Counted from the first letter of the stretch, positions 2,089-31,375 are shown. The stretch: 42,916 nt of DNA from Cyanobacteria bacterium DS2.3.42 (GCA_013823055.1 PNLN01000014.1:1-42916); one strand, 5' to 3'. The notes: generated by a model not told the origin, from the sequence alone. Program-made: numbers and translations.

Positions 2089-2123
2089 GATGATAAGTGG
2101 GGCGAGAAGGAACATCTGGGATT

Positions 2124-3020
2124 ATGAGTGATAGGGTTCTAATTTTTGGCGGTTCCGGTATGCTCGGCCACAAGCTGAGTCAGGTTATCTCCAAGCAACA
2201 AGATACGTTCGTGACGCTGAGAGACAGAGGCGTTGCAGCGAAGTATCCACAGTTCTTTGAGCGGGCACGGATTATTGACAAAGTCGATGCCCAAGATACT
2301 GAGAGCATTTCCAGGGCTTTTGACGAAGCGCGCCCAGACGTGGTGGTCAACGGCATCGGGGTCGTAAAACAGCTCGATTCTTCTAAAGATGCTGTGATGA
2401 GCATTAATATCAACTCACTCTTGCCGCATCGCTTGGCTGAATTGTGTGCCTCGCGCGGCGCTCGCTTGATTACGATTTCGACCGACTGCGTATTTTCGGG
2501 AAGTAAAGGAAATTACAAAGAGTCTGAAAATCCTGATCCCGAAGATCTCTACGGGCGCTCGAAATTGCTAGGAGAAGTTCAATCCGGCAATGCCCTGACG
2601 ATTCGAACTTCCATAATCGGGCGCCAAATTCACGGCTCGCACGCACTTTTAGAGTGGTTCTTGAGCCAATCTGGTGGGCTGGTTAAGGGCTATAACAAGG
2701 CCATATTCACTGGATGGCCGACCCTGATCCTGTCTGAGATTATCGCCGGCATCATCACTGAACATCAAGAATTGAAGGGTGTTTTGCATGTTGCATCAAA
2801 CCCGATTTCCAAATTCGATCTTTTGAATTTGATCAAAGATAAGTTTGGTTTGAATATCGAGATTGAACCGAGCGACCAACTGGACTGCAATCGATCGCTA
2901 AACGGAGAGTTGTTTAGAAAGTTGACCGGATTCAAAACCCCAGAGTGGGATGAATTGGTCACTCGTATGCGAGATGACCAGGCATCATATGCGGTGCCGG
3001 CAGAATTGAGTTTGAAATAA
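2124..3020 (+). CDS. NDP-4-keto-6-deoxysugar reductase, RmlD-like SDR (WbvR-like candidate)
   Basis: A 298-residue short-chain dehydrogenase of the extended RmlD type. GGSGMLG (residues 9-15) binds NAD(P)H, STDCVFSG is at 119-126, and the catalytic Y143-x3-K147 pair lies in YGRSKLLGE. RmlD relatives reduce a 4-keto-6-deoxy nucleotide sugar at C4. The same strand carries a UDP-GlcNAc 2-epimerase, and a CapE-type dehydratase lies nearby. This protein has no C-terminal cupin, unlike CapF/FnlB/WbjC (about 370 residues), so a WbvR-type role in UDP-L-RhaNAc/L-QuiNAc synthesis is the best inference. The chosen ATG is preceded by AGAAGGAA about 11 bases upstream. An in-frame GTG at 2097 would add nine residues but lacks a good binding site. 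It heads a five-gene plus-strand operon. Confidence 0.8.
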   Translation: MSDRVLIFGGSGMLGHKLSQVISKQQDTFVTLRDRGVAAKYPQFFERARIIDKVDAQDTESISRAFDEARPDVVVNGIGVVKQLDSSKDAVMSININSLLPHRLAELCASRGARLITISTDCVFSGSKGNYKESENPDPEDLYGRSKLLGEVQSGNALTIRTSIIGRQIHGSHALLEWFLSQSGGLVKGYNKAIFTGWPTLILSEIIAGIITEHQELKGVLHVASNPISKFDLLNLIKDKFGLNIEIEPSDQLDCNRSLNGELFRKLTGFKTPEWDELVTRMRDDQASYAVPAELSLK

Positions 3021-5171: not shown

Positions 5172-6254
5172 TTGAAAGTCATTACGATATTTGGCACTCG
5201 ACCTGAGATGATCAAGCTCTGGTCAACTATGAAAATGCTGGACGAATTAAACTTCGAGCACATTATGGTGCACACAGGGCAGAATTTTACGCCCGAATTG
5301 AAGGACTTCTTCTTTAGCGATCTGAAACTCCGGAAGCCTGATTTCCAGCTGGAAATCGACACTTCCAGCTATGCCAAGGAAGTGGCTGATGTAATAGTCA
5401 AATGCGACGACTTGTTTGAGAAAGTCAAACCGGATGCACTTCTGATTCTCGGCGACACCTTCAGTGGACTTTCTGTGATGCCGGCTTCTCAGCGCGGTAT
5501 TCGCTCATTCCATATGGAAGCGGGGCTCAGAGCCTGGGATGCCAGAATGCCAGAGCAGCGCAATCGCAAACTCATCGATCACGCCGCTACGATTAATTTG
5601 CCGTTTAATCAGTATCACAGAGAAAATCTCATGCGGGAGGGCATTCATCCCTCCAAGATTTTTGTTTCCGGCAATCCGACCTTTGAAGTTATTCGTGCAT
5701 TCATGCCGGAAATAGAAAACTGCGATGTTCTCAACCGCTTGAGTTTGAGCGCGAAAGAATATGTTCTCGTAACAGCGCACCGCAGCGAAAATGTCGACAA
5801 TCCAAAGTATTTGAATGCCATCATCGGCGCTCTTGGTGAGATACACAAGCGTTTCAAAAAAGACGTCATTTATCCGATGCACCCGCGCACTCAGAGCAAA
5901 CTCAAAGGTATTGAAGTTCCTAAAGGCGTGCAGATTATGAATCCTTTGGGGTTCTATGATTTCAACCGCCTTTATCAGCACGCTTTTTGCGTACTTTCCG
6001 ATTCAGGTACCGCGCCTGAAGAAGCTTATTTCTGGAAGGTTCCTTGCGTCAGCCTGAGAATGACGACTGAGCGTCCGGAGTCAGTGGAAGGTGGAGCCAA
6101 TGTTGTGGCCGGCATGGAGCAAGATAATATTGTGGAGTCAGTAGAGACCGTGACCAGCCAGGGCTGGCATGGCAGATATAGCCTGGAAGAGAATTTTAGT
6201 CCGGCGGCAGTGGTGGCAAATGTTATGCGCAGCCAAATAACGAACTTCTTTTAG
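5172..6254 (+). CDS. UDP-N-acetylglucosamine 2-epimerase family (WecB/CapG/WbvD-like)
   Basis: A 360-residue GT-B-fold epimerase. GTRPE (8-12) opens the protein. D95, E116 and E128 occupy the places of the catalytic acids D95, E117 and E131 of E. coli WecB, and H203 in TAHRSEN matches H213. SDSGTAPEEA is the nucleotide-binding loop. Family members invert C2 of UDP-GlcNAc or of UDP-6-deoxy-L-HexNAc. With the RmlD-like reductase upstream and the CapE-like dehydratase at 10240, the last step of UDP-L-QuiNAc or L-FucNAc synthesis is favoured over plain UDP-ManNAc; this is inference. The sequence differs from canonical WecB at GDTFSG (usually GDTNS). Start TTG 5172 has AGGAAA six bases upstream and leads straight into KVITIFGTRPE. 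Confidence 0.88.
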   Translation: MKVITIFGTRPEMIKLWSTMKMLDELNFEHIMVHTGQNFTPELKDFFFSDLKLRKPDFQLEIDTSSYAKEVADVIVKCDDLFEKVKPDALLILGDTFSGLSVMPASQRGIRSFHMEAGLRAWDARMPEQRNRKLIDHAATINLPFNQYHRENLMREGIHPSKIFVSGNPTFEVIRAFMPEIENCDVLNRLSLSAKEYVLVTAHRSENVDNPKYLNAIIGALGEIHKRFKKDVIYPMHPRTQSKLKGIEVPKGVQIMNPLGFYDFNRLYQHAFCVLSDSGTAPEEAYFWKVPCVSLRMTTERPESVEGGANVVAGMEQDNIVESVETVTSQGWHGRYSLEENFSPAAVVANVMRSQITNFF

Positions 6255-6262
6255 GGGCGAAG

Positions 6263-7444
6263 ATGAATTCTACGATGGAAAAAAAGGTCGCACCGAATGC
6301 AAGTGAAGGCACCAAAAGCGAAAGGCTGACGGGCGCTGCCATCAAGCTAGTGAGAAATGTGCCTGGATTGAAGCAGTCTGTATTGCATGGAGTGGCACTG
6401 CTGACGCGTCATGAGACCGGCTATCTGCAGGCCAAGCTCAAGAAAGAAGAGCAGCTCAATCTGGATCTCACCAACCGCTGTGAAGAATTGACCGGGATGC
6501 TTGCATCGATTGCCAAACACATTGAGCTTGAGCAAAAGCTGAATAAATCAGTCAAGCACGAAGCAGGTGCTGTCAGAAGATTGATGTTTATCGAACAGCA
6601 GCATCAGCAAATCAGGAGTCATTTTCCTGACCTGGCCAAGCATCTACCTTCGCCTGGTTCTTTGGATACTGCGCTTGCCGAAGCAGTTCAGCAAACAATC
6701 ATGCCGGTCATCGTTTTTACACACATTCAAAAGACAGCCGGCAACAGTGTTATCGCATTCCTGAGGCGCTGTTTGACCGCCCCTCAAGTGGCAAGGATTC
6801 ACGAGTTGGAGGTTGCCTCTAGAGAGACCATCAAGGAAGCGATAGACAGTAAATTCGGGAAGTATGATGTTCTGGCCGGGCACATTCCCTTCTCGCGCCG
6901 CATCGATCTCTTGCTTGACAGACCAAGTGCCAACATAAGCATCATGCGAGAGCCTGTAGACAGGGTGGTGTCCCTGTACTTCTACTTAAAGGCAAATGCA
7001 AGCTGGTTGGACCAGGGCAAATACATTGTGGACAATGCCATATCGCTCAAGGATTTCGCCAGCTGTGAAGCCTATTTCGACAACCACATGGTGCGGATGA
7101 TGTGCGATCTCGATCCGATGTCCGTCTCGCTCGGCAAATGCACCAATGAAATGCTGGAGCAAGCCAAAATCAATGTGGTGAAGAACTTTCTTCTGGTCGG
7201 ACTTACTGAAAAGATTCACGAATACCTGGCTGTTCTTGCCCATCTATTTTGTTGGTCGCTGGACGATGTTCCTAAGGAAAACGTCAATGAGATGCGCGCG
7301 CCCATATCGAAAGTTCCGGATGACGCCATCATGGCGGTGGCAGAATGCAACAAATATGATGTCGAACTCTATCAGTTCGTAAAGGAATTGTGGGAAATTA
7401 CCACCAGAGAGAGTCGGCCCATTAAGACATCTAGCCAGCCTTAG
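6263..7444 (+). CDS. Sulfotransferase family 2 protein with N-terminal coiled coil
   Basis: A 393-residue protein. The 5'-phosphosulfate loop HIQKTAGNS is at residues 154-162 and the 3'-phosphate segment IMREPVDRVVSLYFY at 227-241, as in Golgi-type carbohydrate sulfotransferases (Sulfotransfer_2). It would transfer sulfate from PAPS to a sugar hydroxyl in the cytoplasm. The first 130 residues are a separate region: an amphipathic basic start and heptad-like helices around 55-125, possibly for membrane association or oligomerisation. The start at 6263 follows an AGGGGCGA element overlapping the stop of the epimerase, so the two are coupled. The 3' end overlaps the convergent YfhO-like gene by 14 bases. 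The canonical loop is HIPKTAGTS; the P to Q change is unusual. Confidence 0.82.
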   Translation: MNSTMEKKVAPNASEGTKSERLTGAAIKLVRNVPGLKQSVLHGVALLTRHETGYLQAKLKKEEQLNLDLTNRCEELTGMLASIAKHIELEQKLNKSVKHEAGAVRRLMFIEQQHQQIRSHFPDLAKHLPSPGSLDTALAEAVQQTIMPVIVFTHIQKTAGNSVIAFLRRCLTAPQVARIHELEVASRETIKEAIDSKFGKYDVLAGHIPFSRRIDLLLDRPSANISIMREPVDRVVSLYFYLKANASWLDQGKYIVDNAISLKDFASCEAYFDNHMVRMMCDLDPMSVSLGKCTNEMLEQAKINVVKNFLLVGLTEKIHEYLAVLAHLFCWSLDDVPKENVNEMRAPISKVPDDAIMAVAECNKYDVELYQFVKELWEITTRESRPIKTSSQP

Positions 7445-10239: not shown

Positions 10240-11307
10240 ATGCTGACCGATAAGAATGTAGTTGTATTCGGTGGGACCGGTTCTTTAGGCAAATTGCTCG
10301 TAAAGAGATTGCTGGCAGGAGAGTGCGGCAAGCCGAAAAAACTCTTGATTGTTTCGCGCGACGAAGCAAAGCAACACTTTATGAGATTGGAGTTTCAGCA
10401 ACTGGCCGTTGCCACAGACGAGCTCTTCTATCACAACTATCAGCGCGTTTTGCAGTTTCACATCGGCGATATTCGCGACTACAGCTCCGTCAGAACCGCA
10501 ATAAGGGACGCTGATTTTGTTTTCAATGCTGCTGCCTTGAAGCAAGTGCCTGCTTGCGAATATTTCCCATATGAGGCGGTGTTGACCAATATTGTCGGCG
10601 CTGAAAATATCGCTCGAGCCATTCGAGAAAATGGTTTGCCTGTACATACAGTAATTGGCGTATCGACAGATAAAGCCTGCAAACCTGTAAATGTTATGGG
10701 CATGACAAAAGCGATTCAGGAGAGAATTTACGGACGGGCAAATTTAGACTGTCCGGAAACTAGATTTGCATGCGTGCGCTACGGCAATGTACTGGCTTCG
10801 CGCGGTTCGGTCATTCCTTTGTTCCACGAGCAAATTGCCTGCGGCGGACCTTTGACAATCACAACCGAGACAATGACGCGATTCTTGCTGCCTCTCGATC
10901 ATGCTGTAGACACAATTTTTGCATGCTTGAGGGGAGCGAAAGCAGGCGAGATTTATGTCCCCAAGTGCCCTGCGGCCAACATCAAAGATCTCGCTGAAGT
11001 AATGATTGGCGATAGCGGAGTGGCGCTCAAAGTAATCGGCATTCGCCCCGGCGAAAAGGAGCATGAGGCGCTTGTTTCGGATGAAGAGTCTTATCGCACA
11101 GTCGAGCGTGGCGATTACTATGTCGTCCTGCCAATATTGCCGGAATTGCAACCGGAGACATTCGAGCCTTCCAGCCTGGCCGGCGAAGAGTACGACTCCA
11201 GAAAAGATTTGATGGACAAGAAGCAGATTAAGGAATTGCTCGACAAGAATGACTTGCTCAGACCGCATGCAATTGCTGTGAGAATGAAAGAAACAGCAAA
11301 GCGCTAA
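10240..11307 (+). CDS. UDP-GlcNAc 4,6-dehydratase, 5-inverting (CapE/FnlA/WbjB type)
   Basis: A 355-residue soluble SDR without the membrane domain of long CapD/WbpM enzymes. GGTGSLG (11-17) is the nucleotide loop. STDKA (142-146) contributes the catalytic Asp-Lys. The usual Tyr of YxxxK is Met153 in NVMGMTK (K157), the replacement that marks the CapE/FlaA1 branch. CapE-like enzymes convert UDP-GlcNAc to the 4-keto-6-deoxy L-arabino sugar and start UDP-L-FucNAc, L-RhaNAc and L-QuiNAc synthesis. The reductase at 2124 and epimerase at 5172 could complete the route, although a minus-strand gene separates them. TGGGG lies four bases before ATG 10240. Its stop interlocks with the stop of the convergent glycosyltransferase in the four bases CTAA. 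Confidence 0.87.
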   Translation: MLTDKNVVVFGGTGSLGKLLVKRLLAGECGKPKKLLIVSRDEAKQHFMRLEFQQLAVATDELFYHNYQRVLQFHIGDIRDYSSVRTAIRDADFVFNAAALKQVPACEYFPYEAVLTNIVGAENIARAIRENGLPVHTVIGVSTDKACKPVNVMGMTKAIQERIYGRANLDCPETRFACVRYGNVLASRGSVIPLFHEQIACGGPLTITTETMTRFLLPLDHAVDTIFACLRGAKAGEIYVPKCPAANIKDLAEVMIGDSGVALKVIGIRPGEKEHEALVSDEESYRTVERGDYYVVLPILPELQPETFEPSSLAGEEYDSRKDLMDKKQIKELLDKNDLLRPHAIAVRMKETAKR

Positions 11308-12548
11308 GAGCGTCTGGCACAGTTATTTCGCGACAGAATCTCTTCGTACAGTTCAATCATTCTGGCTACATGCGTATTCCAATTGTAGTTTTGTTCTGCT
11401 AAGTGCCGCGCTTCGGCACCAATGGACTTTCGCATGTCCGGGTTTTCAATTAATTGTCTCAACGTTGCCGACAGGGCATCGCTATCACCCATTGGGACAG
11501 CCATTGCTCCCTTGGGCGCGAATGTAACCTCAGGCAGTGAAGTCCCCTCAAACACGATTGTAGGCTTGCCTGAAGCCATTGCTTCAATGGCCATGACGCC
11601 AAACGCTTCTGCAGTCGATGGCATGAGAAAAATGTCGGCAGCCCTGTAAGCGTCGGCAATCAAGTCGCTATCTTCCAGCCAACCCAAATCAATCAATTGA
11701 TACTTGCCCAGATAGTTTTTGAAGAGTTGTTTGTCCTCGACGGTGAGGATAGTTAGGGGTGTTGTGGATGGCAGCTTGTCCAGAGCCTCGAAAATGTAGG
11801 GAAGACCCTTGAATGGACTGACTGTGGCACGCAGGCAGATCACAGTATTGTCTGGATGAATGCCAAGTTTTTTTCGGGATGCTTCCGAATTGCCCGGACG
11901 GAATTTATCGAGGTCGATGCCGAAAGGAATCAGGTGATGCCTGAAATGAGAAAAAATCGGCGATTGTTGAACCTTAGCAAGCATCCATTTCGAAGCGACG
12001 ATAATATCAAGCTGTGACTTTGCAAAAACATCCTTTTTGATTTGCCACATTTTTTGCGTGTTGTCTTTTTTCATGGACTGAATGACGTCCAGATCCGGGC
12101 AGCTACCACAGCCGGTCATCCATCTGTCGCAAGAGCGAGGATATACGCAGTGCCCCGTCAGGCTCCAGGGGTCATGCAGAGTCATGATGCTGGACTTGTT
12201 CTTTGTCAAAGACGGTAAGCCAAGCAAGCTGAACCAGCCTGTGTGCAGTAAATGGTAATGGACAAGATCTGCAGCTCTAAAGTGATTGTTTGCAGAAATA
12301 GCAAATGCAGCGGGATGAAGAATCGACTGAAGAGACAGTTCTCTTTCAGCTTTGTTGAGGACATCGTTTAATTGTTCTTTGAACGGATAGTCGATTTGGC
12401 TTGTGTTTGTTTCAGTGCCGAGTTTCTTCCAGACCAGGTGATGGGAGTCAAAGCCTCTCTGGCTGAGAGCCGAGTGCAGATCCTGTCCATTGAATCGGCT
12501 GCCGGTGGTATCGATATTTCCAATTTGTAGCGTTCGAAATTTAGTCAT
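11304..12548 (-). CDS. GT4 glycosyltransferase, WcaC-like, second copy
   Basis: A 414-residue GT-B transferase. C134, C140, C147 and C150 in the GHC...GCGSCPDL segment form a four-Cys cluster typical of this WcaC-like subgroup. The donor-binding EX7E pair is E314 and E322 in STAEAFGVMAIE. It is a clear paralogue of the protein at 14176-15456: these motifs fall at identical residue numbers if translation starts at ATG 12548. That supports this start over the TTG at 12557. The ATG lies one base after the TGA of the truncated gene upstream, so translation is probably coupled. The stop interlocks with that of the CapE-like gene. Donor and linkage are unknown. Confidence 0.88.
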   Translation of the reverse strand: MTKFRTLQIGNIDTTGSRFNGQDLHSALSQRGFDSHHLVWKKLGTETNTSQIDYPFKEQLNDVLNKAERELSLQSILHPAAFAISANNHFRAADLVHYHLLHTGWFSLLGLPSLTKNKSSIMTLHDPWSLTGHCVYPRSCDRWMTGCGSCPDLDVIQSMKKDNTQKMWQIKKDVFAKSQLDIIVASKWMLAKVQQSPIFSHFRHHLIPFGIDLDKFRPGNSEASRKKLGIHPDNTVICLRATVSPFKGLPYIFEALDKLPSTTPLTILTVEDKQLFKNYLGKYQLIDLGWLEDSDLIADAYRAADIFLMPSTAEAFGVMAIEAMASGKPTIVFEGTSLPEVTFAPKGAMAVPMGDSDALSATLRQLIENPDMRKSIGAEARHLAEQNYNWNTHVARMIELYEEILSRNNCARRS

Positions 12549-12549
12549 T

Positions 12550-13170
12550 TCATTCAATCGCTTTTACACATTCAAGCAGCTGTTCTTCAGATATCGAGGT
12601 GATTAATTCATGTTGCGCTGCGCGTAGACCGTTGGCTGCGATGTTGTCGTAGTGTTCTAAGTCGAAAATCAATCTGTCAAAAGAGTTATAGAGCTCGACA
12701 TCAATGGACTCACAAGAATGGCAAAACACGGCCGCATTTTGTGATTTGAGAAAACTGACTGGAGCTGCATAGTCCGGCCCATGAAACACCAGGGGCCGTC
12801 CACTTCTTAAGAGCAATGACAATTCCGGGGGGAAGTGCGTGCGTGTCTGCTCTGCAAATTTCGGCTCAAACTTTTGCGAGCAATACATGATTTGGGCTGT
12901 GGACAACATTTCTATTGTTTTTGCTTCAGTGGAAATACCGAGGAAGCGGGCATAAACAGGCGTGTTGCAATCAAAGCCAAAATCTTTTCCGAATACCAGC
13001 AGCTGGATTTTGTTGTTGCGTATCTGCCATCCTACTTTATCGAGCGTTGAAAGCAGACACTTCCACTCCCAGTTGTCTTTAGAAGCGTTTGCAACAGCAA
13101 TTGTGATGGTGCTGGATTCACTATTGGTACTGGGTTCAGGCACGGATAAAAGCTCATTTTGTAAAGACAA
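12550..13170 (-). CDS. Truncated glycosyltransferase paralogue (C-terminal half only)
   Basis: About 206 residues align only with the second half of the proteins at 15453-16724 and 16727-18004. Shared marks include an acidic-aromatic stretch near residue 32, GRPLVFHGPDYAAP, FLKSQNAAVFCH and the closing helix. The N-terminal GT-B domain is absent, and a TAG lies in frame three codons before the TTG used here, so it is not simply out of frame. Positions conserved in the intact copies have drifted: AGQLYSS became VANASKD, CPYWF became CSQKF, and FPSKL became FPPEL. Catalysis is therefore doubtful. It may be a decaying remnant or a regulatory partner of the WcaC-like protein one base downstream. 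Start is uncertain (TTG 13170 or GTG 13143). Confidence 0.65.
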   Translation of the reverse strand: MSLQNELLSVPEPSTNSESSTITIAVANASKDNWEWKCLLSTLDKVGWQIRNNKIQLLVFGKDFGFDCNTPVYARFLGISTEAKTIEMLSTAQIMYCSQKFEPKFAEQTRTHFPPELSLLLRSGRPLVFHGPDYAAPVSFLKSQNAAVFCHSCESIDVELYNSFDRLIFDLEHYDNIAANGLRAAQHELITSISEEQLLECVKAIE

Positions 13171-13268
13171 TAGAGCCTAAATCAATTGCTGAATTCTTTG
13201 GAGTAATATCGACAAGCGGCTCAGAGAAATATTGCTGGAAAAAAGTTGTGATCATTCAGCTAAGAGTG

Positions 13269-13997
13269 TCAGAGTGATTTTCTAAAAAGTGCAGTACATC
13301 CGAACAGTCCGTAAAAATCAAAATTTGGATCGCACAACATCGCGTCGTTTGCTCCTTTATAGACACCATAAACGTGTTCAGGGTCGGCATTGGCTGGATC
13401 GTTGTAATCGTGAAACAGGCAGAAGCCGCCATTTTTCAGAAGCTTTTTTGCACGCATCGCTGCTTCGTAAGTGGCAGCGTAACCATGCCAATGATCGATG
13501 AAGATAAAGCTATACGATTTGCCTTTTGCAATAGCTTTGTCCATGTATTCGGTGGCGTCCAGAATATTGAATTCTACAGGCGCTCTGCCAGGTTTTGACT
13601 GAACGTTTTTTCGTGCCAGGGCATTTGCTTCTTTGTCAATGTCAACTGTTTCAAAACGGATCTGCTGTTTTGAATCGTGAATTGCCTGAGCAATTATGCT
13701 TGTTGAAAGTCCGCAGTACGTGCCTAACTCGAGTATATCGCCGCCGGCAAAATAAGCCAGTTCGTAAAGTTTGAGCGCATCGCCATGCTGGAGATAACCA
13801 TCAATATCGATATTGATGCAGACCTTAATGTCTTTGTAGCCAGATGGACAATTGGAATAGTACTCGTGGTTTGCATTGATGTAAGAACCGGGAAACCTAT
13901 ACGTAGGTACGTAAGGAGTTGTTTTTTTTCCTAATTCACTTAACCCTAGGAAACTATCTGCATGTCGAATGGTTTCATGCATTATCGAGGCAGTCAT
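13269..13997 (-). CDS. Class I SAM-dependent methyltransferase (Methyltransf_24 type)
   Basis: A 242-residue soluble enzyme. ELGTYCG (90-96) is SAM motif I, VDIDKEA near 118 holds the acidic ribose-binding residue, and FIFIDHWHGY (165-174) with a later FHDY supplies the Asp/His cluster of the Methyltransf_24 family. Members in glycan clusters O-methylate sugars; some relatives act on other hydroxyl groups. The sugar target is not predictable. ATG 13997 is preceded by GAGG six bases upstream. The gene lies between the two copies of the paired glycosyltransferase module, 178 bases after the first copy and 98 before the truncated gene, and may have entered with or after the duplication. Confidence 0.8.
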   Translation of the reverse strand: MTASIMHETIRHADSFLGLSELGKKTTPYVPTYRFPGSYINANHEYYSNCPSGYKDIKVCINIDIDGYLQHGDALKLYELAYFAGGDILELGTYCGLSTSIIAQAIHDSKQQIRFETVDIDKEANALARKNVQSKPGRAPVEFNILDATEYMDKAIAKGKSYSFIFIDHWHGYAATYEAAMRAKKLLKNGGFCLFHDYNDPANADPEHVYGVYKGANDAMLCDPNFDFYGLFGCTALFRKSL

Positions 13998-14175
13998 ATG
14001 ATCCTCATTCTTGACCGGGCAAAGCGGCGTTTGCCGGATGGATATAGGCGATCGGCATTATAAACGTAAGCCTGGCGTGGCGCATGGGAATTCGGCTAAT
14101 CTATCAAGAATTCTCGATTCCACGTCGCAGGCGCGTTGGAGTTTTCTTGGAATTTCTTAATCAGACTGAAAGCGC

Positions 14176-15456
14176 CTATTTGTGGCTGGATTGCGCAGGG
14201 CGAGTTGGCTCGGCAGGGCTAGGGGCAGCTGTTCCGGCTCTTGCCAGGGCATTCTCGTAAAGGTTTTGCATTCGGTCAACGTGCAATTTGAAGTCATAGT
14301 TCTGGACGGAAAGATTCCTCGCTTCATCTCCAAGCTGTTTTCTCGCTCTTTGGTCCGTTAAGAGATGCTTCGTTGCTTTGAGCAATTCGTTTGCATTTTT
14401 GGGGATAGAAATCGCCCCGCGCGGTGCAAACGTGACTTCAGGCAAGGCGGTACCGTCGAACACGATAGAGGGCTTGCCGCAAGCCATTGATTCGATTGCC
14501 ATCATGCCGAATGATTCTGCTGTTGACGGCATGAGGAACAAATCGCAAGCCTGTAGAGTTTGTGCGTAGGCACTTGATTCCTTTATCCAGCCGACTTCTA
14601 CGATATGGTGACGTCCTAAATATTTGTCGAAATGACCTTTTTGATTGAAGGCAAGAATGGTGATGGGCAGCTCAAAATCCAGGTGCTCAAACATTTCCTG
14701 TATATAACTGAGTCCTTTGAAATCGTTGGAATTGGCGCGCAGACCAATAACCAAATTGTCTTTGGGGATACCGAGTTTTGCCTTGCAATCTGCAGTATCT
14801 CCCGGCGCAAATAGCTGGGTATCTATGCCGAATGGAATGTGATGCAGGCGAAAGTTTGACATCAAAGGTGATTCCTCTGCCATCTTCATCATCCACTTCG
14901 ATGCCAGGACTATATCGATGCGCGATGCGTGGTAGAGAAACTTCTTTGCCTTCCACAAGAAAGCTGTATTGTCGTGCTGCAGAGGAAACATGATCTTGAG
15001 GTCAGGGCAATTCCCGCAACCGATTTTCCATCTGTCGCAGCCAAATGGATGTACGCAATGTCCGGTCATCGCCCAGGGATCATGCAATGTCCACACGGAC
15101 GGCTTCATGCGCGTCAAAAGCGGCAAGGCTCCTAGACTGAAGTAGCCGGTGTGGAGAAGGTGGTAGTGGACCAGATCGGCTTCTTTGAATTGCTTTCGAA
15201 GCGGAAACTCAAAGGCAAAAGGATAAAGCAGTGACTGAAGACTGAATTTGTATTCCAGCCGTTGAATTTTCTGTTGTCGTTTTATTGATTTGGTGGTCTT
15301 GATTTCGCTGGTGTCAGGGTCATCGCCCGTCTTCGACCAGACCATATGATGTGATCGAAAGCCGCGTTCTCTCAATTCCTTATGGAGGTCTTGTCCATTG
15401 AATCTGGCACCTTCTTCATCGGTGGCGCCTACTTGCAGGATGTTGATTTGCTTCAT
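14176..15456 (-). CDS. GT4 glycosyltransferase, WcaC-like, first copy
   Basis: A 426-residue GT-B transferase. An RFNGQDLH segment near residue 18 is shared with its paralogue. The Cys cluster is C134, C140, C147, C150, and the EX7E motif is E314/E322 in STAESFGMMAIE. By eye it is about half identical to the protein at 11304-12548 along its whole length, apart from a Pro/Ala-rich C-terminal tail of some 20 residues found only here. ATG 15456 overlaps the TGA of the upstream glycosyltransferase as ATGA, so the two are probably made in equal amounts and may act consecutively. WcaC-type enzymes add sugars during colanic-acid-like repeat assembly; the actual donor is unknown. Confidence 0.88.
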   Translation of the reverse strand: MKQINILQVGATDEEGARFNGQDLHKELRERGFRSHHMVWSKTGDDPDTSEIKTTKSIKRQQKIQRLEYKFSLQSLLYPFAFEFPLRKQFKEADLVHYHLLHTGYFSLGALPLLTRMKPSVWTLHDPWAMTGHCVHPFGCDRWKIGCGNCPDLKIMFPLQHDNTAFLWKAKKFLYHASRIDIVLASKWMMKMAEESPLMSNFRLHHIPFGIDTQLFAPGDTADCKAKLGIPKDNLVIGLRANSNDFKGLSYIQEMFEHLDFELPITILAFNQKGHFDKYLGRHHIVEVGWIKESSAYAQTLQACDLFLMPSTAESFGMMAIESMACGKPSIVFDGTALPEVTFAPRGAISIPKNANELLKATKHLLTDQRARKQLGDEARNLSVQNYDFKLHVDRMQNLYENALARAGTAAPSPAEPTRPAQSSHK

Positions 15457-16724
15457 TCGTCACTTTTCAGGTCTTCAACTTTCAACCCAAGAAATTCAGC
15501 AAATTGCTTGCGCATGATATCCAGAGTTAGATGTTGGTGAAAGGCTTTAGATCCATTTTCGGCTGTCTGTCTATAAAGCTCCGCATTCGATACCAGTCTA
15601 TCTAATTGGTTGTAAATGTCTGAGCGGGCCAGGTCGTGGCAAAGCACCGCGGCGTTGTGTTGCTTCAAGAATTTTGCAGGAGAGGCATAATCCGGGCCGT
15701 GAAAAAAAACAGGACGCCCTGTCGCCAAGTACGTCGTCAACTTCGAGGGAAAGCTCAAGCTTGCTTCTTCTTTGAAAACCGGGTCGAACCAGTATGGGCA
15801 GTACATCACATCCATTTGAGAGAGGATATCTATTGATTCGGCTTGTGTTCTCCAACCCAAATATTCAACATTCATCGGTGAATTGGACTGGAAAGTGACG
15901 GCACGACCGAGCACTTTTATTTTCACGTTGCGATTGCCGATTTTCCACTGTGCATGCTTGAGGGTGAGCAGCAAATTCTCCCATTCTTTTGAAGAATACA
16001 GCTGCCCCGCCATGCCGATGGTGAGCTCGTCTTCTTTGTTCATTCCTGTCGCCGGCGGCTTAGCCAGTGCGGCATCTAGACTGGGAATCACTGTAATTGA
16101 GCGGCAGCCGTATAGGCTTTCATAACTTTCTGCCATCGCCCATGATGCGGCGGCAAAGCGAACTGATTTTTTCATTGCTGATGCGAAATCAGCAAGAATG
16201 AGATTTTGCGACCAGCTGTCAACTTTGTTTGCGCGCAGCCACCAGGTCGGGGGATCCCAGACTTCAGTCAGCAAAGGTACATTCATGAGGTCAGCAACTT
16301 GGTTGGCGAGTCTGATCATTGTTTGTCCCTGAACAACGCACCAGACTGCATCGGCGCCGAACTGAGTGCCGAATTCAGCTGCTTGCCTGGCGATTTTCTT
16401 GACCGTGACCTTTTCCGTGTATTTCTCCGCCAGAAAGCTTTCCAGTGCTCCTATTTTGCCGGGCAAATGCCGCGGCTTGTGTTCCTTTGGTTTGGAGACG
16501 ATCTTGATCGGAATATCTGCATGAGTAATTTCCGGATCAAGCTCCCTGTTCAGTACTGTAAAACAGCTGACTGAACCGGCAGGCAGAAACGAGCACAGTT
16601 GATCGAGAACCAGTCCTGCTGTGAAGTTTCGGCATGGAGGAATGTCGGTCAGCAATAGGAATTTCTTGCCTTGGGTTTTTCCTTCCGCAACCGGACTTGT
16701 TCTTTGTATGAGTTCGCTTGGCAT
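15453..16724 (-). CDS. GT-B glycosyltransferase, WDPPxWWLR family, copy 2
   Basis: A 423-residue two-domain transferase. The N-terminal domain ends with a striking WDPPTWWLR at 156-164 and an AAASWAMAESY stretch. The C-terminal donor domain has AGQLYS (239-244), YCPYWFDP (308-315), FPSKL (325-329) and GRPVFFHGPDYASP (336-349). It lacks a standard EX7E motif, and I can only place it in the broad GT4-like group. Closest relatives in the window are 16727-18004 (full length), 12550-13170 (half) and 34396-35814 (distant). ATG 16724 lies two bases after the preceding gene, and its stop overlaps the following WcaC-like gene by four bases. The tight pairing suggests the two add neighbouring sugars. 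Confidence 0.8.
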   Translation of the reverse strand: MPSELIQRTSPVAEGKTQGKKFLLLTDIPPCRNFTAGLVLDQLCSFLPAGSVSCFTVLNRELDPEITHADIPIKIVSKPKEHKPRHLPGKIGALESFLAEKYTEKVTVKKIARQAAEFGTQFGADAVWCVVQGQTMIRLANQVADLMNVPLLTEVWDPPTWWLRANKVDSWSQNLILADFASAMKKSVRFAAASWAMAESYESLYGCRSITVIPSLDAALAKPPATGMNKEDELTIGMAGQLYSSKEWENLLLTLKHAQWKIGNRNVKIKVLGRAVTFQSNSPMNVEYLGWRTQAESIDILSQMDVMYCPYWFDPVFKEEASLSFPSKLTTYLATGRPVFFHGPDYASPAKFLKQHNAAVLCHDLARSDIYNQLDRLVSNAELYRQTAENGSKAFHQHLTLDIMRKQFAEFLGLKVEDLKSDE

Positions 16725-16726
16725 TT

Positions 16727-18004
16727 TTAGTTTTTTAAAGCCTTCAAAAATTGTGCTTGCATGTGTTCTTCGGTGAGATGTCCATGAAATGCCTTTGTGC
16801 CATTTAAGGGCAGGCGGCTGTAGAGAGCTGAATCAGCTACCAGTGTGCTGATGGCGTCAATGAGGTTCTTTTGATTCAAGCTGTTGCATTGCATGGCTGC
16901 GTCGTGCTCACTAAGAAATCGTGATGGAGATGAGTATGACGGTCCGTGGAAAAGCACCGGTCTGCCGGAGGCAAGGTAGCCGGTCAGTTTTGAAGGGAAA
17001 CTCAAACGAGATTCTGTCTCAAATTTTGGCGAAAACCAGTAAGGGCAATACAAAATATCGCACTCAGAAAGAATGTGCAGCGTTTCTTTTTGTGATCGCC
17101 AGCCGTAAAAGCGAATATTTCTTCGGCCCTCTGCACTAAGTCCGAAAGTGCGCCCCAGTGCTCTTACCTCCACCGGTCGTCCTTCCACTTTCCAGTCAAC
17201 TGATTCAAGTGCCTGCATCAGGCAGTTCCATTCTTCACTCGAATACAATTGCCCGGCAAAGCCGATCGTGAGAGTTTCGGCGTCATTGAGACCTGCTGCC
17301 GGCTCGAATGCCCAATCTTTCGGCAAGCCGGGAATCACGGGAATGGCATTGCAGCCGAATTCCTGCTTGTACTGTTCAGCCATCGCCCAGGAAGCCGCCG
17401 CAACCGTCGTTTTCGAATTTGAGAGAATCTTTGCAAAGTCTGCCAGCACTTCGGCCCTGGAAAACCTATCTACGTTGTTGTCTCTCAGCCACCAGCCGGG
17501 AGGGTCCCATATTTGTGCCACCATTGGCAGTGGCAACTGCTTTTGTAATGATGCCGCCAAACGTATCAACGTCTGTCCTTCAAGTGTGCACCAGATCTTC
17601 TGCGCGCCCACCCTTTCGGCAAAAGCAAGAATTTCTTCGGCAATTCGCGGAACAGCGAATTTAGCTACCGATTGTTCTTTTATGTACGATTCAATTACGC
17701 CAAGATGCAGCGGAAAGTGTCGGATATGAGATTCACTCGGCTTTTGTCGGTGCCGATACGGTATGTCTCGCCAGTCAGGATGAATTTCGCTACTAAGTCC
17801 TGGGGTCATGACTGCAAAACACGAGAGTTTGTCGGCAGGCAGTGCCTGGCACATGGAATGCAACATCAAGGCGCCGGTGTATTTCGAGCTAGGCGGCACA
17901 GAAGAGAGAAGGAGCACATTGCCAATCTTTTCTGTGCTGGACGTTTGCAGTACTTCAGTCGAAGTATTGCGTGGTTCGCCTGCAAGTGAAATTGTGTTGG
18001 GCAT
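16727..18004 (-). CDS. GT-B glycosyltransferase, WDPPxWWLR family, copy 1
   Basis: A 425-residue paralogue of the next gene downstream. WDPPGWWLR is at 166-174, followed by a run of VDRFSRAEVLADF and the AAASWAMAEQY stretch. The C-terminal domain again has AGQLYSSEEW, CPYWFSP, FPSKLTGYLASGRPV and an FHGPSYSSP loop. The first 28 residues are polar and unlike the paralogue. Two adjacent full-length copies with a two-base gap indicate tandem duplication with divergence, probably to different acceptors. ATG 18004 was taken as start; no strong ribosome-binding site is visible. The preceding acyltransferase ends 104 bases upstream. Confidence 0.8.
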   Translation of the reverse strand: MPNTISLAGEPRNTSTEVLQTSSTEKIGNVLLLSSVPPSSKYTGALMLHSMCQALPADKLSCFAVMTPGLSSEIHPDWRDIPYRHRQKPSESHIRHFPLHLGVIESYIKEQSVAKFAVPRIAEEILAFAERVGAQKIWCTLEGQTLIRLAASLQKQLPLPMVAQIWDPPGWWLRDNNVDRFSRAEVLADFAKILSNSKTTVAAASWAMAEQYKQEFGCNAIPVIPGLPKDWAFEPAAGLNDAETLTIGFAGQLYSSEEWNCLMQALESVDWKVEGRPVEVRALGRTFGLSAEGRRNIRFYGWRSQKETLHILSECDILYCPYWFSPKFETESRLSFPSKLTGYLASGRPVLFHGPSYSSPSRFLSEHDAAMQCNSLNQKNLIDAISTLVADSALYSRLPLNGTKAFHGHLTEEHMQAQFLKALKN

Positions 18005-18108: not shown

Positions 18109-19233
18109 TCAGGGCGCGATCCAGGTCGGGACTCTGAACAGACGACAAAGCAAATAAAATGCCCACGAGAGGAGGAAAGTAACGGACGAGACGGCCAGTA
18201 TGTATGCGACCGTTATTAGTGAACGGTGAGTGTGCAAATCGAGCATCCACCTTAAGTGCAAACACACAGTGTCCAAGAAAATCGGATGCACCAGGTAGAT
18301 CGTAAAGCTTGCCGCGCTAACAGCCTCAATCAGCCCGGCTAGCCAGCGTTTTCGTGGCTTGACTACGAGTAATTTTGCGGCGAGAAAGAGAATGGCCGAG
18401 TAGACAATAATCTGCGGGCTCGTGTAATTGAAAAGCGTTTGATCGAGTTTTTTGTCAACCGCGCTGAACGACAGCCAATATGTACCCATAATCGTTGCAA
18501 GCAGGCAGGTAGCAGCGATCAGTGAGGCCAACGGCAACTGGCGTTTGGAAATTTGATAGTCCCGCAATACATATCCCAAAATGAAATATCCTGAAAATCC
18601 GGTCGCTACGGCGAAAAGGAACGGCGGTCTCACTCCGGTCAGAGAGCCAACCAGCGGTAAAACGCTGGCGCTGGCGAACCAGAGGGCAAGGAAATAGAAC
18701 ACGTCCTGCTTGCTTGCCCCCCGGAGAAAAGCTTTGAAAATGGGTACGGCCAGGTAGAGTCCAGCCAGATAATAGAGATAGTGCAGATGGTAGCAAGCCG
18801 GTTGATTGACGACGGTGAGCCAGTCTAGCTTTAGACCATGAGTAGCCATCCAAATCGAGTAAATTGCCGTCCATGAAACCAAAGGCATACCGATGCGCCA
18901 GATCCGGCGTTTGAGAAAGGTCCCGGCGTTTTCGGATTGCAGCGAAGAGAGCAAAAGCATTCCGCTGATCAGCAAAAACAATGGGACGCACGATCTCGTG
19001 AGCGAGTTGAAGATGCATCCGACCCAGAAGAGCCCTGGTGAAGAAACTGCATTTGCCATGGGGGCGGACGCATGCAAGAGAATTACCTGAATCGTAGCGA
19101 AGCAGCGTAAAAAATCGATATAAAAAAGGCGGTTAGAATTGGGCGCGTCGCTGGCTGGCAAGGAGTTGTCAGCCAGGTGGCTTGGCTGTGTGTCTCTCGA
19201 CAGCGTGGCGACTTGCTTCATGGGATCAGCCAT
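18109..19233 (-). CDS. Acyltransferase 3 family membrane protein, copy 2
   Basis: A 374-residue integral membrane O-acyltransferase with about ten hydrophobic segments. YIDFLRCFATIQVILLHAS near the start carries the Arg and His typical of the family, PLFLLISGMLL follows, and FTIYLVHPIFLD lies near the end. Such proteins move acetyl or other acyl groups across the membrane onto sugar hydroxyls (OafA, WecH type). Start choice: ATG 19233 has GAAGG seven bases upstream, while ATG 19221 gives an ATGA overlap with the upstream stop like other junctions in this operon. The open frame extends further into the upstream gene but is unlikely to be used. Copy 1 is immediately upstream, and both end in a similar P-x-W-I/L-x-P tail. 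Confidence 0.88.
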   Translation of the reverse strand: MADPMKQVATLSRDTQPSHLADNSLPASDAPNSNRLFYIDFLRCFATIQVILLHASAPMANAVSSPGLFWVGCIFNSLTRSCVPLFLLISGMLLLSSLQSENAGTFLKRRIWRIGMPLVSWTAIYSIWMATHGLKLDWLTVVNQPACYHLHYLYYLAGLYLAVPIFKAFLRGASKQDVFYFLALWFASASVLPLVGSLTGVRPPFLFAVATGFSGYFILGYVLRDYQISKRQLPLASLIAATCLLATIMGTYWLSFSAVDKKLDQTLFNYTSPQIIVYSAILFLAAKLLVVKPRKRWLAGLIEAVSAASFTIYLVHPIFLDTVCLHLRWMLDLHTHRSLITVAYILAVSSVTFLLSWAFYLLCRLFRVPTWIAP

Positions 19234-20318
19234 TGGGGAGCCTTCAAAAACCTGCCGATGCGAACTATCGACCAGGAGACGAGAGTGACAATTGCAGTAA
19301 GCAGAATTATCTTTAAAGTCGTCCATCCGAAGCCGGTTTTGTGAAAAATCGAGTGCAATTTCAATCTTATGCAAATGTCGAGAATGATCGGATGAACGAG
19401 ATACATCGTAAACGCTGAATCACCAATGGATTTGCCGACTTTCAAAAGTCCTGGGCAGTTTTTTTTCAGACATTCATAGTTGAATGATTTGAAAATGAGA
19501 AGTGTTGCTGCTGAATATACGAAAATCAGGGCACTGGAAGATTCTACGAAGAACGGATCAAAGATTCCTCCATTTGAAGCGGTAAGAAAATAGGTGGAAG
19601 CACAACAGGCCAGGAACGCTGCGATTGCAGTCAACCAGAGTAGCGGCAAAGCGGCCTTTGACACTACGTAATCCTTGAGTGCATATCCAATCACGAAATA
19701 CCCGGTCAGATGAGTTGCCACTACAAGTTGAATTGCGCAATCCAGCCCCAGCAGTTTTTTCAATGTCGGAAGGACAGACGCGCTGATCAGCCATAAAACT
19801 ATGAAGTACTGGTAATCTTTTTTTGTTGCCGACTTCGTAAAGACCTTCAACAGAGGTGTAGCAAGATAAAGTCCGGTTAGAAAGTAGAGGTAACCGAGAT
19901 GGTAATAGGCTGGCGTGCCTAAAACTGCCACACACCTCTGAATGTTCACTTCGCTTCCCTTAAACCAGCATCCCCACGCTAAGTAAATGCCGGACCAAAC
20001 GGCCAGGGGAATAAGAATTCTGCCCACGCGTTTTTTTAGAAAGCTAAAGGGCGAGGATATGTCTTTGTCCAACAAGAAAAGACCGCTCAACATTAAAAAC
20101 AAGGGTACGCTCGCCCTGCCGAAGACTTCAGGAAACAGGCATGCCCACCAGGAGCTTGCTGCTTTGAGATTGCCAAAATAGGTGACCGTGCAGTGCACAT
20201 TTATCACTTGCAATATCGCCAGAGCGCGAAGCAGGTCGGCATACAGCAGCCGCTGTGAGACCGGCTTGTCGGCGACACTGATGTGGACTTTCTCTCTTTC
20301 AGCAAGGGAAATGGTCAT
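19218..20318 (-). CDS. Acyltransferase 3 family membrane protein, copy 1
   Basis: A 366-residue polytopic acyltransferase, closely similar in plan to the next gene. YADLLRALAILQVINVHCT, PLFLMLSGLFLL and FTMYLVHPIILD correspond to the same positions in copy 2. The family has about ten membrane helices and uses acyl-CoA on the inside to modify a sugar outside. Two adjacent copies imply either acylation of two positions or a heteromeric pair. ATG 20318 has no clear ribosome-binding site, and the CACCTC just upstream is the complement of one, so expression may rely on the preceding sulfotransferase 85 bases upstream. The stop overlaps the start region of copy 2. Confidence 0.88.
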   Translation of the reverse strand: MTISLAEREKVHISVADKPVSQRLLYADLLRALAILQVINVHCTVTYFGNLKAASSWWACLFPEVFGRASVPLFLMLSGLFLLDKDISSPFSFLKKRVGRILIPLAVWSGIYLAWGCWFKGSEVNIQRCVAVLGTPAYYHLGYLYFLTGLYLATPLLKVFTKSATKKDYQYFIVLWLISASVLPTLKKLLGLDCAIQLVVATHLTGYFVIGYALKDYVVSKAALPLLWLTAIAAFLACCASTYFLTASNGGIFDPFFVESSSALIFVYSAATLLIFKSFNYECLKKNCPGLLKVGKSIGDSAFTMYLVHPIILDICIRLKLHSIFHKTGFGWTTLKIILLTAIVTLVSWSIVRIGRFLKAPQWLIP

Positions 20319-20403: not shown

Positions 20404-21750
20404 TTATGTCATTGGTGCCGGGACCAGCTTTACCCACTTGATCTCCGTGTGTGTTTGAAACTCGCTTTGATCGTCTCCGAAGATGCCATCGATGCACAAT
20501 TCTGAGAAGTCCTGTTGCCAGTTGGCGTTCTCGCAGGTTCGAAAGCGAACAACATGGTAGTGATCGCATGTTCTGAATGGGGCGATATGGCTTCTCTCCG
20601 GAGTGAATTCTTCTCCCTTTTTCCTCCACGACAAGCGGCATTGGGTGCCGGTTCCACCCTTGACGCAAAGCCATACTTCCATCGTTCGCGGATGTTTCTT
20701 TACGTCAACAGCAAAGCTGATACGGCAAGAACTGTGGTTGCTTCGGATCCTGATCTTTCCTTGGTCAGCGATTCTTTCAATGGCTCCTTCTTCGACTGCA
20801 ACAGAGTTCTGGGTCAGCTCAGAAAAATTTATTTCTATTGACTTTGCTTCGTCGCGCGACACCACTGGTTCATAACCCAGCTTCTGAAGCGCGTCGAAGT
20901 TCAAAATTTGAAGATAGAAGAGAGCTCGCTTCGAAATTTCTTCGTGTTTCCACCTTTCCTTGGATTCTGCCAAGCTGCTGGTCGAGTGTACAGCGTGAGG
21001 CGAAGTGTCCAAAGGTTCCATGGCTTTCCAGCCGATGCGAGACTCGAGCAGTCGAAGTAAATTGTCGGTGTCCTGGCAAATTTCTTCGTACTTGAGCAGC
21101 AGCACCGAGTCTTCGTGTTCCACTTCCATAGTTGATTCGAATAGGCTGTTGAATTGCGCGCTTAATTGCCACGCTCTGGTCATGTCGGTGGCGTTCTTGA
21201 GACCGAAATTAGCGGCTGGATTCTTCTTGTTATAGGCAATCTGTGAAAGATAAGTGTCACGTGGATCGCGGAATAACGCCAGAGTCAAGGATGGTATGTT
21301 CTTTCTGACGAAAAAGGGCACCCAAATCGGACACTTTTCGGCATGATAGCGTGCTTCTGGTATTTTTTCGATACTGGTCCGGCTGGCCGTCGACCAGAGG
21401 GCTTTAAAAACCGCATCACGCGATATTGTAATGTCGCTTTTTCCTCGTGGGGAGCGCAGATACACTGTATCCAGCTTTTTGGAAAACAGATCGGTGACGG
21501 TAATTGCCGGCTCTTGTTGCTCCTGATCGTCTCGCTCCAAAGTATCGGAAATTTTTGCGAGATAACTGAGGACATGCTTTTCAAAGGGATAGGTGCGATC
21601 AAAGAGGCAGCGCTTATCTCTTGCCAGATGCGACATCAATAGCGTGGTGCCGCTGCGAGGAATAAATGCCACCATGATGGGAAGAAGCAGTCTGTCCACA
21701 GCAACCGCATCGAGCACCGCCTTGTCGGCCATCTTCTTTTGCTCATTCAT
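20404..21750 (-). CDS. Sulfotransferase with extra C-terminal domain, paralogue A
   Basis: A 448-residue protein. RSGTT (32-36) is the PAPS 5'-phosphosulfate loop and FRDPRDTYLSQ (160-170) the 3'-phosphate segment. HAEKCPIWVPFF (136-147) lies where many sulfotransferases have an active-site EK segment. The catalytic domain ends near residue 290. The last 130 residues form a separate, probably beta-sandwich domain with EVWLCVKGG, LSWRKKGEEF, VVRFRTCENANW and a closing IKWVKLVPAP strand. The same domain ends the sulfotransferase at 31372-32757, so it is a shared architecture, perhaps carbohydrate-binding. It lies 19 bases after the GT-C-like gene and before two acyltransferases, consistent with cytoplasmic sulfation of the same glycan. 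Confidence 0.82.
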   Translation of the reverse strand: MNEQKKMADKAVLDAVAVDRLLLPIMVAFIPRSGTTLLMSHLARDKRCLFDRTYPFEKHVLSYLAKISDTLERDDQEQQEPAITVTDLFSKKLDTVYLRSPRGKSDITISRDAVFKALWSTASRTSIEKIPEARYHAEKCPIWVPFFVRKNIPSLTLALFRDPRDTYLSQIAYNKKNPAANFGLKNATDMTRAWQLSAQFNSLFESTMEVEHEDSVLLLKYEEICQDTDNLLRLLESRIGWKAMEPLDTSPHAVHSTSSLAESKERWKHEEISKRALFYLQILNFDALQKLGYEPVVSRDEAKSIEINFSELTQNSVAVEEGAIERIADQGKIRIRSNHSSCRISFAVDVKKHPRTMEVWLCVKGGTGTQCRLSWRKKGEEFTPERSHIAPFRTCDHYHVVRFRTCENANWQQDFSELCIDGIFGDDQSEFQTHTEIKWVKLVPAPMT

Positions 21751-29884: not shown

Positions 29885-31375
29885 TTAAACTTTCCTCTGA
29901 ATTCCAGCCAACCTGACCAGTTTGCGCACGGCTCTTCGAATCAAACTTGGTGGTTTGGGGGGCTGGACTTTGGGCAATGGAGCAACGAGTGGTACTGTCT
30001 CTGGCTCTGGCTCTGGCTTGGGCGTTTCTGGGGGTGCTGGAGCGGAACTCATATGTGCCGGCATCTGCTGCAAGCTTACGTTGTCGAGTAATGAACCAAT
30101 TGATTCAACAAGGAACTTGTACGGTAGTGCTGTTTTGGCATCTCTTTGTTGAAAACGGTGAATGGCCTCTTCGTATTTTTTCACCGATAATTCCACCGCC
30201 GTTTTTGGATCACAAAATGTTCGCACGCGCTCTATACCGGCTGCTGCGAATCGTCTGCGTAAGTTTACATCGGCGGCTATTCGAATAACCTTATCTGCTA
30301 GATCGACAGAATTTCCCACTTCAAAGAGAAGTCCGCATTCGCCATCAATGCAGTATTCCGGCAGACCTCCAACCCTGGATGCGACCACTGGTACACCGTA
30401 GGACATTGCCTCCAGGCATGTATAACACGCTGTTTCATATCGTGATGGGAACACACAAATATCTGCCTTTTGTGCGGTCTCGATTATTTGGGCCCGCTCC
30501 AGAAAGCCGAGAAATTTTACGTGGTCAGTTAATCCGAGCTCTGCAACTCTATTCTTCAGCCTTTCTGCCAGCGGTGAAGTCTCACCAGCTAGTGCGATTT
30601 CGCGGCCACCTATAGTCAATTGGAAGTCTGGAAATCTTTCTTTGATGAGGGGCAATGACTCAATCAGAGTATCTGCACCTTTGAGTTTGATCACTTGCCC
30701 CCAGAAAAAAAGTGAAGGAAAGCCGGCGCTGTTTACGTCCCTGATTTCCGGCAAACTTTTTTCCGTTATGCAGAATGGCGTTCGGATTATAGAAAACTCG
30801 TCGACACTTATCCCGCTCAGATTGCTCAGAGTCGAGGCCATATCGTGGCAAATTGTAATTAATCCATCAGCAGCGCAGATGGTTGCCAATTCCATTGCAC
30901 CGACGGCCTTTGTATCGGACTGCGGATAATTTCCTACCAGCCCTGCTTGCATAATCGTTCCCAGGGGACCATAGCAGCGTATTACTAATGGAAAATCGTG
31001 AGAGGCCGCAAAGAAGGCGCCAAGAGCATTGAATTCCTGGCATTCAATTACATCTGGGTTGAATTGTGAAAGCTCGTCTTGAAAGCTCACGTACAATTCT
31101 CGCGCATAGCCGATTATGGACGCGGTTGTTGGTATTCCCGGCAGTGCGTTTAGAGAGTCGTATTTAGTCCAATCTCTCGGTTTGCGCAAGACAGTGATGC
31201 CATCTACGTCATATTTGCCGGCGATATCATCGGGTTTAAATGGATCGCAAAAGCAGAGAACGAGCAATTCATGACCTTGCCGTTTCATCTCACGCGCCAT
31301 CTGCCATGCGGCCGGGAAGACCGGATCTTCATGGGCGCTGCGCGGAAACGAACCAAGAACCAGGGCGATTCTCAT
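29885..31375 (-). CDS. GT4 glycosyltransferase with Pro-Glu linker and basic tail
   Basis: A 496-residue GT-B transferase. MRIALVLGSFPRS opens it, FFWGQVIKLKG near residue 223 starts the donor domain, and the EX7E motif is E314/E322 in YETACYTCLEAMSYG. After about residue 425 comes a linker rich in Pro and Glu (PKPEPEPET) encoded by a six-base repeat, then a basic amphipathic end (IRRAVRKLVRLAG) that may bind the membrane. It is paralogous to the proteins at 32793-34292 and 37409-38854. ATG 31375 overlaps the upstream sulfotransferase stop as ATGA, so the two may act on the same residue. Donor unknown. Confidence 0.88.
   Translation of the reverse strand: MRIALVLGSFPRSAHEDPVFPAAWQMAREMKRQGHELLVLCFCDPFKPDDIAGKYDVDGITVLRKPRDWTKYDSLNALPGIPTTASIIGYARELYVSFQDELSQFNPDVIECQEFNALGAFFAASHDFPLVIRCYGPLGTIMQAGLVGNYPQSDTKAVGAMELATICAADGLITICHDMASTLSNLSGISVDEFSIIRTPFCITEKSLPEIRDVNSAGFPSLFFWGQVIKLKGADTLIESLPLIKERFPDFQLTIGGREIALAGETSPLAERLKNRVAELGLTDHVKFLGFLERAQIIETAQKADICVFPSRYETACYTCLEAMSYGVPVVASRVGGLPEYCIDGECGLLFEVGNSVDLADKVIRIAADVNLRRRFAAAGIERVRTFCDPKTAVELSVKKYEEAIHRFQQRDAKTALPYKFLVESIGSLLDNVSLQQMPAHMSSAPAPPETPKPEPEPETVPLVAPLPKVQPPKPPSLIRRAVRKLVRLAGIQRKV
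30001..30018 (-). repeat. Three tandem CTGGCT hexamers encoding the Pro-Glu linker
   Basis: CTGGCT occurs three times in a row on the plus strand, and flanking bases extend the pattern imperfectly. On the coding strand it gives repeated CCA-GAG (Pro-Glu) in the linker of the GT4 at 29885. Changes in copy number would keep the frame and alter only linker length. Confidence 0.6.

Follow-up and report, generated by a model that had tools for sequence, protein, structure and literature searches.

Gene organisation of the locus

The window, i.e. the whole 42,916-nucleotide stretch that was analysed, is contig C3 of a metagenome assembly (G000) that is 64% complete. The host genus, which also includes MAGs labelled Candidatus Melainabacteria or Obscuribacterales, consists of uncultured non-photosynthetic relatives of cyanobacteria. 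The features of interest lie on the minus strand and are given in Table 1 in their order along that strand. Beyond B2 lies a PseB/FnlA-like gene in convergent orientation (10240-11307, +).

Table 1. Features of the glycosyltransferase array, in minus-strand order
Feature	Position	Strand	Assignment	Details
A0	16727..18004	-	full-length GT-B glycosyltransferase, third A-family member	425 aa; 43.6% identity to A1, E 1e-132
A1	15453..16724	-	full-length GT-B glycosyltransferase, closest A2 paralogue	423 aa; AlphaFold2, Foldseek, tree
B1	14176..15456	-	WcaC-like GT4 glycosyltransferase	426 aa; PF00534 E 2e-16; Cys cluster and EX7E intact
Intergenic block	14051..14062	-	promoter-like block TATAATGCCGAT, upstream ATTAGCCGAA, between B1 and MT	identical in four species in a variable intergenic stretch
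MT	13269..13997	-	class I SAM methyltransferase (Methyltransf_24)	242 aa; PF13578 E 4e-13; orthologues 80-83%
X stub	13154..13255	-	remnant of deleted methyltransferase gene X	33 codons plus stop
A2	12550..13143	-	half-length pseudo-glycosyltransferase	197 aa from GTG 13143; frame extendable to TTG 13170
B2	11304..12548	-	WcaC-like GT4 glycosyltransferase	414 aa from ATG 12548; PF00534 E 8e-21; EX7E and Cys cluster intact

The open genes A1 and B1 overlapped at ATGA, and the pair recurred in the same order as A2 and B2, both open and separated by a single base, as described in an earlier reading made from the sequence only. Identity was 38.7% over 199 aa between A1 and A2 (E 1e-47) and 49.6% over 411 aa between B1 and B2 (E 2e-154), both far above chance. 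The two pairs of the duplicated two-gene module proposed in that reading are therefore real; the proposal had, however, overlooked a third full-length A-family gene, A0, directly upstream, and with the MT gene lying between the pairs the array is A0-A1-B1-MT-A2-B2. The description of the two pair members as unrelated was overstated. A1 was modelled as a full GT-B fold near GT4-type structures and the B proteins are GT4, which makes A and B distant cousins. In both B proteins the Cys cluster (HDPWxxTGHC...CDRW..GCGxCP, at residue 125) and EX7E (at 314) occupied identical positions, in line with the earlier description.

The A2 frame was intact, as had been stated, and four complete copies from different genomes showed neither gaps nor stops. 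The 206-residue product originally proposed from TTG 13170 was not upheld. That codon sits inside debris of another gene, and the start was therefore assigned to GTG 13143; at this position the orthologues of three other genomes also align from an ATG or GTG, giving exactly 197 aa in all four. Pfam and NCBIfam searches with A2 gave no match at all.

Predicted fold and putative donor pocket of A2

Modelled alone with AlphaFold2, the A2 product formed a single Rossmann-like domain (pLDDT 81, pTM 0.79). Its best fold match was GtfC of Limosilactobacillus reuteri, and the glycogen synthase C domain was also matched, with moderate TM-scores (~0.6). The A1 model was a two-domain GT-B protein (pLDDT 88, pTM 0.86) with Foldseek matches to PglA, BshA, MshA and GtfC, and A1 showed a weak profile match to PRK09814 sugar transferase models. 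Searching the sequences of solved structures, whether with A1 or with the A alignments, yielded nothing useful. A2 aligned to residues 215-410 of A1 only and had one Rossmann domain where an active GT-B enzyme has two facing each other.

The reported absence of the N-terminal domain and the alteration of AGQLYS, CPYWF and FPSKL in A2 were reproduced; CPYWF is not, however, a strictly conserved motif, with CAYWF and CPYFF occurring in full-length members. Ten full-length relatives shared 63 invariant C-domain residues; of these, the four complete halves had kept 30 and lost 25, the remaining 8 being mixed. The lost residues clustered (A1 numbering) in G-x-A-G-Q-L-Y-S at 237-244, W-R-x-Q-x-E at 291-296, Y311 and L-S-F-P-S-K-L-T-x-Y-L-A at 323-334. 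In all five halves, K328 was replaced by Glu and Y311 by Gln, while W291 had become Ile, Met or Lys. Conversely, seven positions were fixed in 5/5 halves and different in every full-length relative (A16, W25, S32, R42, L48, Q90 and E107).

In GtfC, the uracil stacks against Trp214 and the phosphates are bound by Lys251; the catalytic residue, Asp101, belongs to the N-domain (PMC12809243). The spacing between W291 and K328 of A1 is 37, as is that between Trp214 and Lys251, and from the fold match and this spacing, rather than from superposition, we infer that these residues correspond. The A2 losses would then sit in the expected donor pocket. With both the N-domain and these putative donor-site residues gone, loss of catalysis is very likely and loss of donor (UDP-sugar) binding is likely.

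The half-length form in related genomes

Orthologues of A2 were found in three further members of the genus, the species G002 (L030/L053), G005 (L029/L052) and G006 (L031/L054). They were 65-66% identical to A2, 197 aa long and free of indels and stops. All three genomes shared the block A0-A1-B1-MT-X-A2-B2-PseB-like, in which X is a 330-aa SAM methyltransferase gene; the half-length form stood next to the WcaC-like B2 and no full-length gene occurred at that position. The A0 orthologues were at 72% and those of B2 at 78-79% identity. In a fifth species, G001, the start of the half form, with the same motifs lost, directly followed A1-B1, and the contig ended inside the gene. Another contig of that genome (C270) opened with a 41-aa A-like C-terminus and then B2, and probably continues the same locus; as BLAST gave no statistical assignment of the fragment to A2, adjacency of A2 and B2 in G001 is only likely.

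Genome G003 carried a single full-length A-B pair only. All other hits in the family had open frames of 370 aa or more, and the distant matches in a phylum-wide sample of 386 genomes all had open frames of at least 400 aa; neither search turned up another half-length form. Within the genomes searched, the half form is thus confined to this genus. The sample of the half form comprised five species of the one genus, all metagenome assemblies, one of the five being cut by a contig end.

That the half gene arose by mis-assembly or faulty gene calling might be suspected from the incomplete source assembly, in which one neighbouring gene, X, is deleted in this assembly only. The same half gene was, however, present in the same place in three separately deposited assemblies, which refutes an artefact for A2 and leaves this explanation a negligible probability.

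Selection on A2

The dN/dS values of A2 were taken from the less divergent pairs only, YN00 and many dS values against G000 being saturated or failed. They were 0.11 for G005/G002 (bootstrap CI 0.05-0.19), 0.09 for G006/G002 (0.04-0.18) and 0.18 for G005/G006 (0.07-0.44), indicating purifying rather than neutral substitution. The matching C-domain gave 0.06-0.09 in A0; in A1 it gave 0.14 for the closest pair, the other pairs having a saturated dS. When neutral evolution was simulated, only 3% of 197-codon frames were still open at 0.15 substitutions per site; at 0.5, none were. A2 is thus functional and kept by purifying selection. Identity was ~65% for A2 versus 78-81% for A1, B2 and MT; this faster divergence indicates a weaker constraint on A2 than on its neighbours.

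The same-length orthologues together with dN/dS ruled out A2 as a pseudogene. Under a related explanation, A2 would be an old pseudogene, or else a leader whose translation sustains that of B2, in either case with a functionless product; this would accommodate the weaker constraint and the overlap of start and stop with neighbouring genes. The explanation is nevertheless very improbable, being largely refuted by a dN/dS of ~0.1 with an upper bound well below 1, by the lack of any indel in four complete copies and by a hydrophobic core and Trp residues that are strongly conserved across the copies. The earlier suggestion that A2 is a pseudoenzyme rather than fresh debris has therefore gained ground: the half form is conserved in relatives, no full-length gene, neutral substitution or frameshift was found, and pseudoenzyme status is well supported.

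Origin of the half gene

The tree joined A1 and A2 as sisters (86/84) and separated them from A0 and from the G003 copy, with a rooting that is not firm. A2 formed one clade (98/98) on a long stem, and B1 and B2 each formed one clade (100/99), both being present in G001. This fits a duplication of the A-B pair before G001 split off, with truncation of A2 and a burst of change thereafter. The course of events that we propose would begin with duplication of the coupled A-B pair within the genus, which trees and synteny support. As the alignment shows, the new A copy then lost the N-terminal domain, which binds the acceptor and in GtfC also bears the catalytic Asp, and its donor-pocket residues were replaced; these replacements would presumably have abolished UDP-sugar binding. 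The remaining Rossmann domain is still predicted to fold and is under purifying selection. A2 would most likely serve as a protein-binding subunit, produced together with B2, that stabilises or tunes this intact GT4 enzyme.

Candidate partner of A2

The A2 stop and the B2 start overlapped by 8 bases (ATGACTAA) in G002, G005 and G006 and were 1 base apart in G000. The gene upstream of A2 varied, being X in the former three genomes, the X stub in G000 and B1 in G001. That A2 stays coupled to B2 although the gene before it differs among genomes makes B2 the favoured partner, by analogy with GtfA/GtfB (PMC12809243) and, in logic only, with EryCIII/EryCII (PMC3391682). In all four genomes with a complete A2 (G000, G002, G005 and G006), an inactive transferase homologue under selection is encoded beside an intact transferase. 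As selection has preserved the half gene beside its intact partner across four or more species, A2 probably works as a helper subunit and is not a dead gene. We put at roughly 0.5 the probability of the main reading, namely that A2 is a conserved, non-catalytic descendant of GT-B enzymes comprising the C-terminal domain only and likely serving as a subunit or chaperone of B2, a role suggested by gene coupling and precedent. The chaperone or specificity subunit suggested in the earlier reading is, on the same grounds, plausible. The coupling could also reflect operon economy instead of a complex. A1 or A0 may be a second candidate partner, A2 possibly having inherited their C-domain contacts, and A2 may also act within the A family without B2.

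The seven positions fixed specifically in the halves, none of them matching any full-length relative, and the long stem branch leading to A2 would also be expected if A2 had taken on a role outside glycosyl transfer, for instance as a binder of another ligand or a regulator of the locus, and were simply riding in the operon. We regard this as unlikely, given that nothing positive identifies a ligand and that the constant coupling despite a changing upstream neighbour points to B2.

A split but active glycosyltransferase was also considered, with A2 as an Alg13-like donor half and the N-domain supplied by A1, A0 or B2. A2 corresponds exactly to the donor-binding domain as a separate chain, and separately expressed GT-B domains can form an active enzyme (PMC10937113). 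This arrangement is improbable, since the locus holds no free N-domain gene, the neighbours being methyltransferases and full-length transferases, and since the putative uracil-stacking Trp and phosphate-binding Lys are absent from all halves, the charge of the Lys being reversed to Glu. The 330-aa gene preceding A2 in the relatives was ruled out as the missing N-domain because it encodes a methyltransferase.

Comparison with known systems

In accessory Sec systems, the GT4 enzyme GtfA has a catalytically inactive partner of the GT-B type, GtfB (PMC12809243). A2/B2 resembles GtfA/GtfB in that an inactive glycosyltransferase homologue is encoded beside an intact GT4-type enzyme. GtfB keeps its whole two-domain body, whereas A2 is a lone C-domain. 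GtfAB modifies serine-rich adhesins, whereas the A2 locus looks like one for surface polysaccharide synthesis; the GtfAB complex has been shown, whereas a complex of A2 with B2 is a candidate.

As in Alg13/Alg14 and related split GT-B enzymes (PMC10937113), the C-terminal donor domain of A2 is on its own polypeptide. Alg13, however, binds the donor and pairs with a separate N-domain, whereas A2 lacks the putative donor residues and no free N-domain gene was found with it. Every two-gene GT-B enzyme that has been reported lies close to the Alg13/Alg14 family, according to PMC10937113. A shared logic may also be proposed with EryCIII/EryCII and DesVII/DesVIII (PMC3391682), in which a non-catalytic protein acts as stabiliser and activator of the GT-B enzyme beside it; EryCII, unlike A2, is a P450 homologue and not a glycosyltransferase domain. 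GtfC/Gtf3 (GT113; PMC12809243), to which the best fold match of A2 belongs, is an active full-length tetramer, whereas A2 has neither the N-domain with the catalytic Asp nor the putative UDP-binding Trp and Lys.

Inactive transferase partners are already known, but the examples met in the literature searched either retain their full length or have a different fold. That literature contained no close precedent for a pseudo-transferase reduced to its C-domain in a bacterial polysaccharide locus, which is not proof of absence. A tentative generalisation, held with a little less confidence than the main reading, is that a stand-alone GT-B donor domain gave up binding its donor and evolved into a subunit dedicated to a neighbouring, only distantly related GT4 enzyme, outside the Alg13/14 and GtfAB cases. 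If true, a duplicated enzyme can turn into a subunit by domain loss, which would provide a route to pseudo-glycosyltransferases, and short transferase ORFs in polysaccharide loci would need to be tested for selection before being dismissed as fragments.

Methyltransferase remnant and intergenic block

In G002, G005 and G006, gene X between MT and A2 had a dN/dS of ~0.03, indicating strong constraint. In the window, an internal deletion had left a 33-codon in-frame remnant (MITTFFQQYFSEPLVDITPKNSAIDLGSIVFTK), whose N-terminal 18 residues were 78% identical to X and which retained the C-terminal GSIVFTK. The genuine debris at the locus is the methyltransferase gene X and not A2. No second copy of X was found in the incomplete G000 genome, and mis-assembly may apply to the deletion of X.

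The conserved TATAATGCCGAT block may be promoter-like or another element. A scan for -35/-10 consensus promoters did not flag it and showed no excess over shuffles. Because the block is conserved upstream of MT, MT-(X)-A2-B2 may be transcribed apart from A0-A1-B1.

Surrounding putative polysaccharide genes

A fourth, distant, full-length A-family protein of 472 aa was encoded at 34396-35814 (-). Its relatives in two other genomes, G010 and G024, sit among nucleotide-sugar genes, and in G010 they form an overlapping tandem pair. Two neighbouring acyltransferase genes (18109-19374 and 19218-20318, -), the first of them Acyl_transf_3, have translations that look like a tandem duplicate; in related loci only the first was matched beside A0.

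The PseB/FnlA-like dehydratase gene was accompanied in the window by genes for a UDP-GlcNAc 2-epimerase (5172-6254, +) and an RmlD-like protein (2097-3020, +). This set resembles UDP-L-FucNAc-type pathways, with the dehydratase below curated NCBIfam cut-offs and the sugar only putative. Sulfotransferase-like genes were present at 6263-7444 (+), 20404-21750 (-) and 31372-32757 (-), one of which matches the Gal-3-O-sulfotransferase family, and the three together suggest a sulfated surface polysaccharide.
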